Assembly (NCBI GenBank): GCA_947626755.1
Contig: CANQTP010000018.1
Location: 1-43,081, forward strand
Direction of reading: 5' to 3'
Length of the DNA stretch: 43,081 nucleotides
Source: an uncultured Clostridia bacterium
GTDB lineage: Bacteria; Bacillota; Clostridia; Oscillospirales; Ruminococcaceae
The position numbers and the translations under genes were made by a program. Each line of letters starts with the position of its first letter. Position 1 is the stretch's first letter. This document shows positions 20,034 to 32,004 of this stretch, piece after piece. The notes under the pieces were generated by a model, which was given only the letters and a program-made list of their open reading frames with translations, ran no database searches and had not been told where the DNA came from.

Positions 20034-20747
20034 TCAATCTTCAGGCGGTTTTACCGACCATTTATATCCGAAGCCCCATATGGTGGATATGTACCGCGGG
20101 TGCGAGGGTTCGTCCTCGATCTTCATTCTTATGCGGCGGATATTTACATCGACGATCTTATCATCGCCGTAGTAATTATCCCCCCAGATATGCATGAGAA
20201 TGGAATTCCTGTCAAGGGCAATTTCCGCATGAGTGAGGAAATATTCCAATATCTGGTACTCTACCTGTGTAAGGTCGATGGGAATACCGTTCTTGGCAAT
20301 TGTGCGGCTTTTCAGATTCAGAACGAAAGGTCCTGATTCTATGGTCTGATAGAGGTCATCGTCTCTTGGAACGCTCATGCTGACGCGGCGGTAGACTGCG
20401 TCTATCCTTGCGGTAAGTTCGGAAGTGGTAAAGGGCTTTGTTATGTAATCGTCCGCGCCTATCATAAGACCGCTTACCTTGTCGATCTCCTGTGTTTTGG
20501 CGGAAAGCATGATTATGCCCAGCGTGCTGCTCCTTCTGCGGAGTTCCTTGCAGACTTTGAAGCCGTCTATCCCCGGCATCATAATGTCCAGAAGTGCAAC
20601 ATCGAATGCTCCGCGGGTCTCATCGAACACCCGCAGCGCTTCTTCGCCGCAGTTTACGTCTACAACGTCATATCCCGCGCGTTTAAGGTTTATAACGACA
20701 AAATCGCGGATAACATCTTCGTCTTCGCAGACAAGTATCCGTTTCAT
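20034..20747 (-). CDS. OmpR/PhoB-family response regulator
   Basis: A 237-residue response regulator. The receiver domain (about 1-120) has the acidic pair in CEDED, the phosphorylated Asp in DIMMPGIDGF, and Lys in the ITKPF motif. The C-terminal winged helix (about 140-235) ends with RYISTIWGFGYKW, typical of OmpR/PhoB proteins. The start at 20747 was preferred to the ATG at 20765 because AAAGGCGG stands seven bases before it and overlaps the longer version. Proteins of this class bind direct repeats with an 11-bp period, as found upstream of the lipoprotein genes at 31571-31598; that this regulator is the one binding there is only a hypothesis. It lies 21 bp after the lipoprotein gene. Confidence 0.93.
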   Translation of the reverse strand: MKRILVCEDEDVIRDFVVINLKRAGYDVVDVNCGEEALRVFDETRGAFDVALLDIMMPGIDGFKVCKELRRRSSTLGIIMLSAKTQEIDKVSGLMIGADDYITKPFTTSELTARIDAVYRRVSMSVPRDDDLYQTIESGPFVLNLKSRTIAKNGIPIDLTQVEYQILEYFLTHAEIALDRNSILMHIWGDNYYGDDKIVDVNIRRIRMKIEDEPSHPRYISTIWGFGYKWSVKPPED

Positions 20748-20768
20748 ACAATTACCGCCTTTCATGGA

Positions 20769-27420: not shown

Positions 27421-29691
27421 TTAATTAATTTCCACTATCGGCAGCTCGGAGCATACATAGCAGTGATCAAAGAAATGTCCATTATCAGTGTTATTTGTAT
27501 CACTGTCAAAATATATATCCGCTTTATATTCTGTGCCGTCAGGCATTATGAAAGTAAGCGGCATACCGTATACGCCATATCCGTTACCGATGATCGTTGA
27601 CCAGCTGTAAGGATCAATTATCGCTTCGGGAAGATAGTATTCGGGCGCGGATAATTTTCTGTAAATAACGCCGTCCTTTTCCGTGTAAACATCGGTTATG
27701 TATTTTCGGATATATTCGCTTCGCAGCGCGCCCTGTTTTTTCTGATAATAATCAAGATCTTTTTCTTCTATAATAATTTTATCTTTCCCGAACATATCCG
27801 CAAAGAACATTACCATTTCGGAAATTGACATATCAATATCGGTGGGGATATATATTTCGCCGTCTATCTCGATATTTTTTGTTTTATCGGTATTGCCGCC
27901 GCTCAGAATTTTATTGAGTGTGTCCCTTTTGGCGGAAAGCGCGGTAAATGCCGTATTATTCGGCTCCGGAAAGAAAAATTCGCTTTCGATATTGTCAAGT
28001 CTCCAGCCGTATTCATCAGAATTTATAAGATCCATTGTCATATAAGAGGGTTCTGCAACATCATGACCTATGGCAATTATTTCTGCAAAGCTGCCGTCAT
28101 ATGAAATTATATAAAATTCATCGGGATCGGGCTTTGTCATTACGCCTGTGTATTGATGTCTGGCGCAAAGATAGCCGTCGATCATTTTATATTCGGGGAC
28201 ATTTTTTTCGTCGGACTCAAAAAGAGTTTTTTGCATTTCCTCATCGGAAATATAATTTTCCGTAAAAGCGGCACGCATTTGTTTTGTAAGTTCATCAAAA
28301 TTTGACGCGTATTCCTGATCAATGGGAGCATATGTATATTCTTCTCTATCGTTTTTTTCAAGAACATTATCAAGATCTCCGAAATATGTGTCATCGTAAT
28401 TTTTGAAACCTGTTACGTTTGCGTAAAGCATGGCTCTTGAGTCTGCAATTTTAATTACGGCTTCCTTCAATTCGCTTTTAACATTTTCGGATACGTCCGC
28501 ATCTTTGAACGGAATAAATTTTTCAATGGGTATTTCCGTTTTCTTTTCTTCAATGGGGATCCCCGATGAGATAACGGGACTTCCGTCTTTTTCATTTATA
28601 ATAATAGTATAGCTGTTTGTTGAACCGTCGCTGTAATAAAATGAATGTGAAGCGTTCTGTTCAAAAATATCCATTTTCGGTTCGAGCATATAATATCTTT
28701 TAGCGTCATGATCGCGGAATATTTTGCCGTCTTTTTCAATAAAAATATCATCAATATAATTTTCCGAATACATTTCGCAGGGATATTCGTCAAATGTTTC
28801 TGAGAAAAAGTCATGCATTTCCTCAATTGACATATCAAGATCGGTCTCGATATAAATTTTATCATCATCAAAAATAATTTCGGGATCGTCCGTGTAATTT
28901 CCGCCGTTAAGTATCTTGTTTAGCGTGTCCTTTTTCAGATAAAGCGCGGTGTAGAAAAGATCTGCTTCAGATGGGTAACATTCCTGAAAATAATCAAGTC
29001 TCCAACCGTGTTCGTCCGATCTCCGGAGTTTCAGATAATATTTTTTCTCATTTTCGGGAGAACCCTCTTCATCGGCAATAATTTCTGCGGAATTACCCTC
29101 GCAGGAGCATATTTTAATATTGTTAAAATCTATCGGATATAAATTATCTCTCTTGCGAATTTTCATACAGAGTTTTCCGTCAATTATCTTGTAATTCTCT
29201 GAAATAAAAAGAGCTTCATTTATGTCTTTTTCGGAAGAATGATTTTCCGTAAAGGCTTCAAGCATCTTCTGAACGAGCTTTTCTTCCGAATCCGCATAAT
29301 CCGTATTTAACGGGGAATAAAAATCGCCTGTCAGATCGTTATATTCAAGGACAGTATCGGTATCTGAGGCGTTTTCAAAATAATCCGAACCGGAGCAGAA
29401 TCTGTTCGATGAATTATAGAAAGAAAACGCATCGGAAATTTTATGTACAGCTTCGCGGAGCTCTTTTTCTTCTGTTTTATCCGCCTTTCTTTTATCGGAA
29501 AAGGGATCAAATATCCCGATATTTATTTTGCTGTTTTCGATGATTGGATCGTCATTTTCAAGCATTTCCGTAAGCGTAAGGGAAGTGGTTTCCGAGGAAA
29601 CGGAGGTTGTAACTTCGGGGGTATTTTCATCGGTTTCACATGAGGAAAATAACAGGCATACTGCCGAGACAAAAATAATAATTTTTTTCAT
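27421..29691 (-). CDS. lipoprotein with four IseA-like units
   Basis: A 756-residue lipoprotein with lipobox FSSC (Cys18) and a Thr/Ser-rich linker. It contains two copies of a two-part module. Part A (about 75-235 and 400-575) has Y-P-I/L-x-x-(D/E)-Y-A, then an AFTEN helix and a YKIIDG/YKMIDG strand. Part B (about 240-390 and 580-756) has RDTLNKIL-type, DMSIEEM or DMSISEM, and YIDDIFIEKDGKI or YITDVYTEKDGVI. The repeat theme (a D-loop, an EE-rich helix, then an FTE/YI segment and a DGK strand) recalls the YoeB/IseA inhibitor of DL-endopeptidases, here in tandem. The first gene of the pair encodes a paralogue 13 bp upstream. Inhibitor function is inferred; the duplication is visible. Confidence 0.7.
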   Translation of the reverse strand: MKKIIIFVSAVCLLFSSCETDENTPEVTTSVSSETTSLTLTEMLENDDPIIENSKINIGIFDPFSDKRKADKTEEKELREAVHKISDAFSFYNSSNRFCSGSDYFENASDTDTVLEYNDLTGDFYSPLNTDYADSEEKLVQKMLEAFTENHSSEKDINEALFISENYKIIDGKLCMKIRKRDNLYPIDFNNIKICSCEGNSAEIIADEEGSPENEKKYYLKLRRSDEHGWRLDYFQECYPSEADLFYTALYLKKDTLNKILNGGNYTDDPEIIFDDDKIYIETDLDMSIEEMHDFFSETFDEYPCEMYSENYIDDIFIEKDGKIFRDHDAKRYYMLEPKMDIFEQNASHSFYYSDGSTNSYTIIINEKDGSPVISSGIPIEEKKTEIPIEKFIPFKDADVSENVKSELKEAVIKIADSRAMLYANVTGFKNYDDTYFGDLDNVLEKNDREEYTYAPIDQEYASNFDELTKQMRAAFTENYISDEEMQKTLFESDEKNVPEYKMIDGYLCARHQYTGVMTKPDPDEFYIISYDGSFAEIIAIGHDVAEPSYMTMDLINSDEYGWRLDNIESEFFFPEPNNTAFTALSAKRDTLNKILSGGNTDKTKNIEIDGEIYIPTDIDMSISEMVMFFADMFGKDKIIIEEKDLDYYQKKQGALRSEYIRKYITDVYTEKDGVIYRKLSAPEYYLPEAIIDPYSWSTIIGNGYGVYGMPLTFIMPDGTEYKADIYFDSDTNNTDNGHFFDHCYVCSELPIVEIN

Positions 29692-29704: not shown

Positions 29705-31501
29705 TTACTTTATTTCTATAAGCGGAAGTTCCGAAGCGATATAAATGAATTCGTATTCATTTTCTGAATAATTTGTCATTGAATAATATACCGAAACATC
29801 GGAAGATGTAATATTTCCCTCTCTGTCCCTGAATTCCGTTTCAGCCGTAAACATGGAATTATCCGTATTTATTGCGGAAGTGCTCAGCCGGAGACCTTCT
29901 TTGACTTTATTTTCGGTGTCGGGAGAAAAAACAATTTCGGGAAGATAATACCTCGGCGCAGAATTTCTTCGGTAAACTTTGCCGTCCTGCTCATAATAAA
30001 CATTTGTTATATATTTTTTTATAAGTTCATTTCTAAGGTCGTCTCCTATGGTCACACCGCTGAATGATTCCGGGGGGTTAAAACTTTTTAAGGCAAATGT
30101 TTCGTTAAAAAAATTCTCCATTTCTTTTATTGAAACAATATTATTTTTTGTGTATGTTTCGTTGTTTACCGTAATTGTTTCCACGTCGGGCGAGGGAATC
30201 CCGCCTAAAATATTGTTTAGTTTTTCGGTTTTCAGATAAATTGCATTATACAGCATTTCATTCATTTTCTGTGCGTTTTCATCAATTTCCGAAACAGATA
30301 CATTTTCTTCATAGGGAACATCGGTCTCGGCTTTTATGAGTGCAAATTGTTTCTTTATCGGCAGATCGTTATAAATGACGTCATTTCCGTTTTCACCGCC
30401 GGTAAGCCGGATATGTATATTTTCTGTCGTATTGCTGTATCGGTCGAAAAATGTTCTGTCCTGACCAAAATCACAAGGGTCAATTATAATTTCGGGGATA
30501 TAATATTTATCCGCGTTTTTATCGCGGTAAATTATTCCGCTTTCCTCGTAATAAACATCGTCGATATATTGCTTTGAATAGCTGTTATAGATCCCCGTGC
30601 AGAATGTGTCCGCAAAAATTTCCTTCATATCGGAAATGCTCATTGTAATGTCGGTCTCGGCAAATTCTTTACCGTCAACTGTGATCTCACGCGGACTCGG
30701 GGGAGTTGCTCCGCCGTCAAGTATCATATTTATAATGTCGGTCTTGACATAAAGCAAGTTATAAAAAATATCCGCTTCATCAAGGTCGCAGCTTTCTATT
30801 CGTGAAGCCCGCCAGCCGTATTCTTCGGAATATTCAAGAGAAATATAATAGTCCTCTTCCCGTTCTTTTTCCGAGAAAATTATTGCTTCGGCAGTTTTGC
30901 CGTCACAATCGAGAATTTTTATATTTTCATAACTTGTCGGCATAGGTATCGGACCGCTGAAAGTCAGCATACACAATGTTCCGTCAATTATTTGATATTT
31001 TGGGACTATTTCTGTTCCGTCACTGTTTTCAAACAATTCGTTATAAAGTTTTTCATCGTCAATAAATTTTTCCGAAAGTGCAGAGCGGATATTTTTCATA
31101 AGTTCCTCCTCATCGGCGGCATAATCGGTATTTATCGGATAGTAATGATATGTATAGTCCCATACTTTCTCCTCGTGTACTGTATTTTCAAGATCGGCAA
31201 AATTATTGTAATATTTTGAGCTTTCGGGGAATTGTCCGTACAGAAAACCGCAGGCGTCAAAAATTTTCCCCAGTGAATCGACGATCTCCGCGGACTGCTG
31301 TTCGGTGGGCTGCGGTTTATCGGAATATATGGCAAAGAAATCATATTCGTGCGGATCGTTCTCGCTTATTTCTGTTATCTGTGTTGTTTCGGGAAGAGGG
31401 ATCTTTGTTTCTTCGGGAATATTTTCATCTTTCTTTTGGCAGGAAACGGCTGTCAGAGCCGCTGTCAGGATCAGCGCAGATGTTTTTATGTAATTTTTCA
31501 T
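29705..31501 (-). CDS. lipoprotein with IseA-like units, shortened paralogue
   Basis: A 598-residue lipoprotein with a C-terminal-of-signal Cys21 (TAVSC). It shares the modular plan of its downstream neighbour: Part A (about 65-230, with YYPINTDYAADEEEL and YQIIDGTLCM), Part B (about 235-375, with ITMSISDMKEIF and YIDDVYYEESGIIYR), and a second Part B (about 405-598, with VSIKEMENFFNETF and YITNVYYEQDGKVYR). The second Part A is missing, so it looks like a copy that lost one unit, or one before full duplication. It is first in the two-gene unit. Its promoter carries WalR-like boxes and a 17-bp inverted repeat. It has an AGAGGT RBS. Confidence 0.7.
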   Translation of the reverse strand: MKNYIKTSALILTAALTAVSCQKKDENIPEETKIPLPETTQITEISENDPHEYDFFAIYSDKPQPTEQQSAEIVDSLGKIFDACGFLYGQFPESSKYYNNFADLENTVHEEKVWDYTYHYYPINTDYAADEEELMKNIRSALSEKFIDDEKLYNELFENSDGTEIVPKYQIIDGTLCMLTFSGPIPMPTSYENIKILDCDGKTAEAIIFSEKEREEDYYISLEYSEEYGWRASRIESCDLDEADIFYNLLYVKTDIINMILDGGATPPSPREITVDGKEFAETDITMSISDMKEIFADTFCTGIYNSYSKQYIDDVYYEESGIIYRDKNADKYYIPEIIIDPCDFGQDRTFFDRYSNTTENIHIRLTGGENGNDVIYNDLPIKKQFALIKAETDVPYEENVSVSEIDENAQKMNEMLYNAIYLKTEKLNNILGGIPSPDVETITVNNETYTKNNIVSIKEMENFFNETFALKSFNPPESFSGVTIGDDLRNELIKKYITNVYYEQDGKVYRRNSAPRYYLPEIVFSPDTENKVKEGLRLSTSAINTDNSMFTAETEFRDREGNITSSDVSVYYSMTNYSENEYEFIYIASELPLIEIK

Positions 31502-31513
31502 ATGTATACCTCT

Positions 31514-31566
31514 TTTGATATGCGGAAATTTTTACAATTATAATTATACAATTTCCGCATATCAAA
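31514..31566. repeat. 17-bp inverted repeat around the lipoprotein promoter -10
   Basis: A perfect inverted repeat: left arm 31514-31530 (TTTGATATGCGGAAATT), right arm 31550-31566 (its exact complement), loop 31531-31549. The right arm lies in the -35/-10 spacer and the left arm in the early transcribed region, flanking the -10. It could be a repressor operator or fold as RNA next to the RBS at 31508-31513. Confidence 0.9.
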
Positions 31567-31571
31567 TGCAA
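31543..31571 (-). promoter_or_regulatory. promoter of the IseA-like lipoprotein pair
   Basis: On the minus strand: -35 TTGCAT (31566-31571), 17-bp spacer, -10 TATAAT (31543-31548). Expected transcription start is about 31536, so the leader is about 35 nt. Confidence 0.75.
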
Positions 31572-31598
31572 TTACAGAGCGGTTACAAATCGGTTACA
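31571..31598 (-). promoter_or_regulatory. three WalR-like direct-repeat boxes
   Basis: On the minus strand, TGTAAC (31593-31598), TGTAAC (31582-31587) and TGTAAT (31571-31576) follow one another at an exact 11-bp period with 5-bp gaps. Each fits the known WalR (YycF) box TGTWAH-N5-TGTWAH. The third box overlaps the -35 by one base, and the first overlaps the end of the upstream gene. In Bacillus, iseA is controlled by WalR, which agrees with the IseA-like products here. Direct proof would need DNA-binding data; an OmpR-family regulator with the same spacing preference is an alternative. Confidence 0.6.
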
Positions 31599-32004
31599 AA
31601 TTGGAAACAGCCGCTTTCAGTTCAATAAAACGCCGTGCAAAAAGCTCCGTAAGCGCAGCAGCGGGCATTGTTATGAAAAACCACAGCACCGAAAACGGCA
31701 GACAGATCTGTCCGAACAGGTCAAACATCAATCCCGAATAGTCCCATACGTTCCAGCCGAGCCACAGATTGACTATGCACCCTGCGATAAATTCAAGTAA
31801 CGTTATCACAACAGCGCCGAAAAGACATTTCATCATAAGCGGCTCCCGCGGACGTGAAACGAAATGCCTGTACAGTATCACAAGGCAAAGTCCGCCTGTA
31901 ATAGTCATGCTCCAGTGGGTGAAACCGCGGAAGATCACCTCAATGAGCGAGTAAAGTATTCCCCCGAAAAGGAAAAGCACAAAATTTTCAACAGCTTTCG
32001 GCAT
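31594..32004 (-). CDS. CmpB-like membrane protein (putative ABC permease)
   Basis: A 136-residue integral membrane protein with four predicted helices (about 7-27, 33-47, 58-85, 100-120). Its closing motif YSGLMFDLFGQICLPFSVLWF is typical of the small family often labelled putative ABC transporter permease (CmpB type). There is no partner ATPase nearby, so the label should not be taken as transport. The 3' end contains the first of the WalR-like boxes. It is transcribed in the same direction as the lipoproteins but separated from them by their own promoter. I see no clear promoter upstream. Confidence 0.75.
   Translation of the reverse strand: MPKAVENFVLFLFGGILYSLIEVIFRGFTHWSMTITGGLCLVILYRHFVSRPREPLMMKCLFGAVVITLLEFIAGCIVNLWLGWNVWDYSGLMFDLFGQICLPFSVLWFFITMPAAALTELFARRFIELKAAVSNL

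Follow-up and report, generated by a model that had tools for sequence, protein, structure and literature searches.

A tandem WalR-type box array, probably an activating one, precedes genes of IseA-like lipoproteins in an uncultured Clostridia bacterium

The systems closest to the one considered here are the two-component system WalRK (YycFG/VicRK) of Bacillus subtilis and Staphylococcus aureus, and MtrAB of Corynebacterium glutamicum, which belongs to a different phylum. WalRK is essential in the species studied, and its logic, hydrolases on and inhibitors off, is taken from Bacillus. The box of B. subtilis and S. aureus WalR is TGTWAH-N5-TGTWAH (consensus quoted in PMC9210968), and among the genes controlled are those of hydrolases, of an IseA-type inhibitor and of a peptidoglycan deacetylase. 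Phosphorylated WalR of B. subtilis activates lytE, cwlO and yocH and represses iseA and pdaC (PMC7299342, PMC4478028). S. aureus WalR activates from upstream of the -35 and represses from sites between the promoter elements or downstream of them (P<0.001 each; PMC10746227), and C. glutamicum MtrA follows the same rule, repressing near the -10 and activating from upstream of the -35 (PMC3353115). The only clostridium for which we found WalRK studied, C. difficile, has a PAS-less kinase and an operon walA-walR-walK-truA2 that lacks htrA, and shows several inverse phenotypes (PMC9210968). Here we describe an array of WalR-type boxes upstream of two lipoprotein genes in a 43,081-nucleotide (nt) stretch of DNA (the window) from an uncultured Clostridia bacterium (assembly GCA_947626755.1, contig CANQTP010000018.1), to which an earlier sequence-only reading had drawn attention. 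Labels beginning with C, G and L are our handles for contigs, genomes and loci; the window is C18.

The promoter region of the lipoprotein operon contains the following elements.

31571..31598, minus strand: three tandem half-sites TGTAAC-N5-TGTAAC-N5-TGTAAT with an 11-bp period, found by pattern search
31604..31609, minus strand: fourth half-site, degenerate (TGTTTC), in register with the other three in the sequence
31566..31571, minus strand: -35 element TTGCAT, kept as TTGNNT in relatives
31543..31548, minus strand: -10 element TATAAT; the last half-site begins 28 nt upstream of it

The three half-sites at an exact 11-bp period reported by the sequence-only reading are indeed there (TGTAAC at 31598-31593, TGTAAC at 31587-31582 and TGTAAT at 31576-31571), and the window has a single match to the triple TGTWAY pattern, whereas 100 dinucleotide shuffles have none. 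Both overlapping pairs fit TGTWAH-N5-TGTWAH, which bears out their description as a WalR-type box. The array has to be extended, however, to the fourth, degenerate half-site, for which near relatives have TGTTAC or TGTTTC; with up to four half-sites in an array, the boxes differ from the WalRK boxes of B. subtilis and S. aureus. The promoter is adjacent, as had been proposed, and the conserved -35 overlaps the last half-site by one base. TTGCAT and TATAAT are 17 nt apart, an alternative pairing TTGATA/TATAAT being possible about 6 bp further on, and the half-sites start 28, 39, 50 and 61 nt upstream of the -10.

This promoter precedes two genes, whose products and domains are as follows.

29705..31501, minus strand: lipoprotein P0001, 598 amino acids (aa), first gene of the pair
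30773..31330, minus strand: IseA-like N-domain of P0001 (residues 58-243; model pLDDT 87.6; the top hits of Foldseek and VIA are IseA)
27421..29691, minus strand: lipoprotein P0002, 756 aa, in which the P0001 N-domain occurs twice
28960..29520, minus strand: IseA-like domain of P0002, copy 1, from alignment to P0001
27958..28512, minus strand: IseA-like domain of P0002, copy 2, from alignment to P0001

The predicted structure of the P0001 N-domain matched only IseA structures at E<=1e-3. This model thus indicates the fold of IseA (a DL-endopeptidase inhibitor; PF16800; PDB 2rsx, 8i2e, 8wt4) and supports the IseA-like label that the sequence-only reading had given to the pair. Unlike the IseA family, the window pair has no sequence-profile match: PF16800 (gathering score 29.9 bits) did not match P0001 at E<=10 or P0002 at E<=0.01, and one of 17 members of the P0001 family matched it, with an E-value of 0.006. 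Sequence searches with P0001 returned no solved relative at E<=10, and its domain profile gave just two unrelated matches among solved structures (E 0.075 and 0.46). The window proteins also differ from IseA in architecture: both are lipoproteins (598 and 756 aa), and they combine the IseA-like domains, one in P0001 and two in P0002, with a further repeated C-terminal part. Homology of P0001 to lipoproteins on C1 and C9 was rejected, the BLAST similarity being confined to the signal-peptide region, and a lipoprotein on C6 could not be aligned with the P0001 profile past the signal peptide.

The spacing of array and promoter recurs across the genus. We tabulated 37 promoters, belonging to 12 orthologous loci, 24 other IseA-type lipoproteins of the genus (two from the genome itself and 22 of 35 PF16800-type open reading frames [ORFs], the other 13 being second genes, cut genes or genes with no clear box) and the deacetylase of the genome itself; genes called by our own scripts are longest-ORF calls. 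A good box, of at least 11 of 15 letters, was present in 29 of the 37. The last half-site lies exactly 28 nt before the -10 in 23 of these 29; it lies 39 nt before it, one repeat further up the array, in two, and at other distances in four, one of which (G003_C6) shows by eye a second TATAAT at 28 nt. P0001 has matches in 14 genomes of the genus, and the 12 orthologous loci are those inspected upstream, with the weak matchers G010 and G014 left out. The tabulated distance is 28 nt in seven of them, and by eye it is 28 nt in G020 and 29 nt in G013; half-site spacing is irregular in G003, G004 and G007.

A genome scan for the same boxes, suggested by the sequence-only reading, recovered 13 sites for TGTAACC-N4-TGTAACC with at most one mismatch in the 3.31-Mb genome, as against none for the reversed pattern; the looser TGTWAY-N5-TGTWAY gave 38 sites and 14 in its control. 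In the family, the exact TGTAACC pair occurs in 23 of 148 genomes (control 0/148), and the near relatives that carry names are uncultured Clostridia of the rabbit gut. The idea that the array is a chance repeat in an AT-rich intergenic region was rejected and has a negligible probability, given the 0/100 window shuffles, the 13 versus 0 genome sites and the conservation in relatives. We also searched for a composite promoter (box pair + TTGNNT + 17 nt + TATAAT), a pattern built partly from promoters that it later recovered (C1, C6 and C18), and found 30 sites in 20 of 396 family genomes and none with the reversed control, in line with the expectation that the boxes would be conserved in relatives.

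Exactly three composite sites lie in the genome itself, on C1, C6 and C18, and all three precede lipoproteins that are IseA-like by predicted fold (window) or by a sub-threshold PF16800 match: the C1 protein (566 aa) matches weakly in a C-terminal stretch (18.9 bits; E 0.02 in another scan), and the C6 protein (420 aa) reaches 21.0 of the 29.9 bits needed (E 3.5e-4). Across the family, 13 of 28 proteins downstream of the composite promoter match PF16800 at E<=0.05 (the 30 sites minus L211 and L228, which have no usable gene, with cut genes replaced by full-length copies where available), and at least 90% have a cysteine in the lipobox column. At least one of these matches is over the cut-off, that of the L224 lipoprotein from another genus (30.7 bits). 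Proteins behind this promoter that are not IseA-like comprise two GHL10 lipoproteins, a cytidylate kinase-like protein, an NfeD protein and unknowns; the GHL10 lipoproteins, which are glycosyl-hydrolase-like, are those of L221 and L231.

The link between box and IseA-type genes is not universal. PF16800-type genes are common in the genus: 20 of 21 genomes have a match at E<=0.1, and in 11 it exceeds the cut-off. Of 14 control genomes, B. subtilis and Synechococcus elongatus gave a match, which exceeded the cut-off in one of the two. For 17 of the 35 PF16800-type ORFs in the examined loci, the three-box score upstream was reached by none of 200 shuffles; these shuffles, like those used for further PF16800 genes and for the folding scores given below, keep base composition only. 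The following counts weigh against tying the array to IseA-type inhibitors. Seven of the 14 over-cut-off matches have no box and five have one (L167, L170, L171, L173 and one gene in L185), the remaining two being one cut gene and one outside the examined set. Among the box-less seven are both over-cut-off genes of the genome itself, on C125 (L166 1384-2196) and C9 (L045 39-887), which encode lipoproteins of about 270-280 aa; the C9 gene was judged on 38 bp of upstream sequence, and the genome-wide box scans show no site there. Part of the IseA-type set therefore lies outside this promoter class, and the several PF16800 genes without a box slightly lower our confidence in the reading proposed below.

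Boxes also adjoin genes with M23, G5, LysM, 3D and NlpC/P60 domains, a polysaccharide deacetylase gene on C23 (Pfam E 2e-35; three exact half-sites and one TGTAGT, placed upstream as in the lipoprotein promoters) and PF16800 genes, together with genes of other classes, which agrees with the cell-wall circuit suggested by the sequence-only reading. At the hydrolase genes the boxes have a different position. The tally covered 35 box loci, four of which have no gene within 420 bp; five of the other 31 have no callable promoter, the -35 of C74 is poor, and each box was assigned one gene, that with the nearest start, so that an NlpC/P60 gene divergent from the L146 box is uncounted. Nine genes have Pfam hydrolase or wall-binding domains (M23, NlpC/P60, G5, LysM, 3D), and in all eight with a callable promoter the box lies downstream of the -10. 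Among the 22 other genes, the box is upstream in 13, downstream in two and overlapping in three, and four have no promoter. Comparing downstream with upstream positions between the gene classes gives a Fisher p of 9e-5, or 2e-4 (7/7) without locus L132 (C89), which was entered by hand from the looser genome search; the labels were set from Pfam after the sites had been seen and the genomes are related, so these values are a guide only. Eight looser-search loci outside the tally, run through the same script, gave upstream calls for C6 and C24 and mixed, weak or no calls for C54, C112, C116, C142, C9:24198 and C25. A search for a -10 with an adjoining reversed box pair found five sites in 396 genomes (control 0), all preceding hydrolase-class genes: two of these encode NlpC/P60 proteins that also have a PcsB coiled coil (L242, L243), and the other three encode G5 proteins (L239, L240 and L241, the last called G5-like from its resemblance to L239, without a Pfam scan). 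Two of these sites, L240 (= L147) and L243 (= L156), had served in making the pattern.

Taken with the position rule of S. aureus WalR and C. glutamicum MtrA, these box positions lead to the prediction that inhibitors and deacetylase are switched on and hydrolases off. In the mechanism that we propose, a WalR-like OmpR-family regulator would bind the window array at an activator position; in its active state, it would dock just upstream of the weak -35 and bring RNA polymerase to the lipoprotein operon. The encoded lipoproteins, anchored in the membrane, would use their IseA-like domains to inhibit peptidoglycan hydrolases outside the cell. At the hydrolase genes (M23/G5/LysM/3D, NlpC/P60), this regulator would bind downstream of the -10 and act as a repressor. 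We regard as reasonably probable, with considerable room for doubt, that the window boxes are a WalR-like activating array for the IseA-like lipoproteins and that the same predicted regulator represses hydrolases. The broader proposal is more tentative, and we give it roughly even chances: that in this family of gut Clostridia a WalR-like regulator of reversed polarity activates membrane-anchored, in part multi-domain IseA-type inhibitors and a polysaccharide deacetylase from one rigid promoter design and represses hydrolases through boxes downstream of the -10, its active state corresponding to a locked wall and not to an opened one.

The sequence-only reading had allowed for activation or repression; the promoter geometry favours activation, opposite to the control described for B. 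subtilis iseA. Repression of the lipoproteins as in B. subtilis would have the array occlude polymerase at the overlapped -35, or would make the half-site pair TTGTAA-N17-TGTAAT the real promoter. Such a scheme has the precedent of iseA and pdaC, both repressed by phosphorylated WalR (PMC7299342, PMC4478028), and could draw on the base common to the last half-site and the -35 and on the -35/-10-like pair that the half-sites themselves spell. We nevertheless find it quite improbable, for S. aureus WalR and C. glutamicum MtrA act as activators from sites upstream of the -35, the TTGNNT/TATAAT pair stands at a fixed distance from the box in 23 of 29 promoters, and the other position holds the hydrolase genes, so that the two classes need opposite signs.

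The predicted polarity, activating for inhibitors, would thus be the opposite of that in B. subtilis, with a partial parallel in C. difficile, where overexpression of WalR raised pgdA, for a peptidoglycan deacetylase, 16-fold, lowered about 4-fold an NlpC/P60 gene with two putative sites, and slowed autolysis (PMC9210968). The same overexpression also induced two putative amidases (PMC9210968); the agreement is therefore partial, and this too counts against our proposal. A position code in the DNA of gut Clostridia would offer a concrete, testable reason for the inverse phenotypes of C. difficile, since shifting identical boxes from one side of the promoter to the other would invert their effect on both classes of gene. 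The sequence-only reading had considered such a circuit undescribed for this group. The kind of system is known, as the C. difficile work illustrates; the new elements are the way the promoter is built, the position code and the occurrence of the proposed inhibitors as lipoproteins. The term 'isea' does not occur in the main text of PMC9210968, and our literature search, whose partial coverage is no proof of absence, turned up no paper that places IseA-type genes of Clostridia under WalR.

As to the regulator, the sequence-only reading had pointed to one encoded in the window.

20034..20765, minus strand: OmpR-family response regulator, with YycF (211 bits) as its best NCBIfam model

We scored the seven OmpR-type regulators that are full-length in the genome, leaving out a truncated copy on C118. 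The best YycF score, 250.6 bits, belonged to a regulator on C2, which makes the window's own the weaker candidate. The C2 gene is followed by that of a kinase (HAMP, HisKA, HATPase) and by that of an HtrA-like protease, and its product is 95-100% identical in 20 of the 21 genus genomes, its own included; the one without it, G012, is 80% complete. Because its score is under the YycF equivalog cut-off of NCBIfam (340 bits), we call it WalR-like, not WalR; it is also under the MtrA equivalog cut-off (246.5 versus 300 bits). This sub-threshold score sets it apart from WalR of B. subtilis and S. aureus, as does the kinase, for which WalK is the best NCBIfam model (221 of 725 bits) and which gave no Pfam PAS match, a trait in common with C. 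difficile. Upstream of the C2 operon there is no clear box that would indicate autoregulation. Judging from these comparisons, the C2 regulator is the best candidate for binding the boxes. Control by another member of the OmpR family, be it the window's own regulator, a PhoB-like one on C16 or one of MtrA-like lineage, is in our view unlikely. Tandem 11-bp boxes are common to this family, seven such regulators were scored, and the window's own has YycF as its best model; moreover, the C. glutamicum MtrA consensus (A/G)TAACAAT also repeats at 11 bp, as TAAC direct repeats with cell-wall peptidases among the targets (PMC3353115). Against these points stand the top YycF score of the C2 regulator, its near-invariance in the genus, and targets that are cell-wall genes of the WalR/MtrA type.

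Our proposal would suggest a function, the inhibition of wall enzymes, for large lipoproteins that have no Pfam family. The IseA-like fold could instead serve another ligand, such as a deacetylase or a transported substrate. Proteins of the IseA family do inhibit different enzymes, Bacillus IpdA for example a deacetylase (PMC12700454), and in G005 and G011 IseA-like lipoproteins come after a gene for an SBP_bac_8 protein; the promoter class is shared with PF16800 lipoproteins, however, and the box with hydrolases, and we hold such a role to be somewhat unlikely, although it deserves real weight. The arrangement in these two genomes, at the orthologous place (L086, L087), is a box, then the gene of the SBP_bac_8 extracellular binding protein, then one or two genes of IseA-like lipoproteins.

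Two other features adjoin the array.

31514..31566, no strand assigned: 17-nt perfect inverted repeat straddling the -10 (arms 31514-31530 and 31550-31566), seen in the sequence and in paired changes in relatives
31594..32004, minus strand: upstream gene of a CmpB-like membrane protein, its stop codon inside the boxes

The inverted repeat extends from the -35/-10 spacer to the Shine-Dalgarno region. Its paired changes are GGAAAT/ATTTCC to GGAGAT/ATCTCC in G019 and ATGCGG/CCGCAT to GGCGG/CCGCC in G020, and six genomes have folding z-scores from -4.5 to -9.3 for it, while G013 has -2.3. An intrinsic terminator was rejected, as no T run follows, and an RNA hairpin in the transcript of its own promoter is unlikely because the left arm precedes the transcription start. 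The repeat may serve a second, dimeric factor as its operator, or act in readthrough RNA from the CmpB-like gene, a similar version of which is found in several relatives.

Some further box loci are of note. Closely alike double arrays of reversed boxes lie at about 4054-4123 of L047 (C15) and 5647-5716 of L048 (C26), upstream of two different groups of ABC-transporter-like genes; they overlap a -10, possibly a repressor layout. A putative luxS-like gene at 1007-1518 of L155 has a TGTAACC pair just upstream, and a similar gene adjoins a box in L148. Finally, a reversed box pair precedes the gene at 2580-5156 of L045 (C9), which encodes an 858-aa lipoprotein with weak FG-GAP matches.
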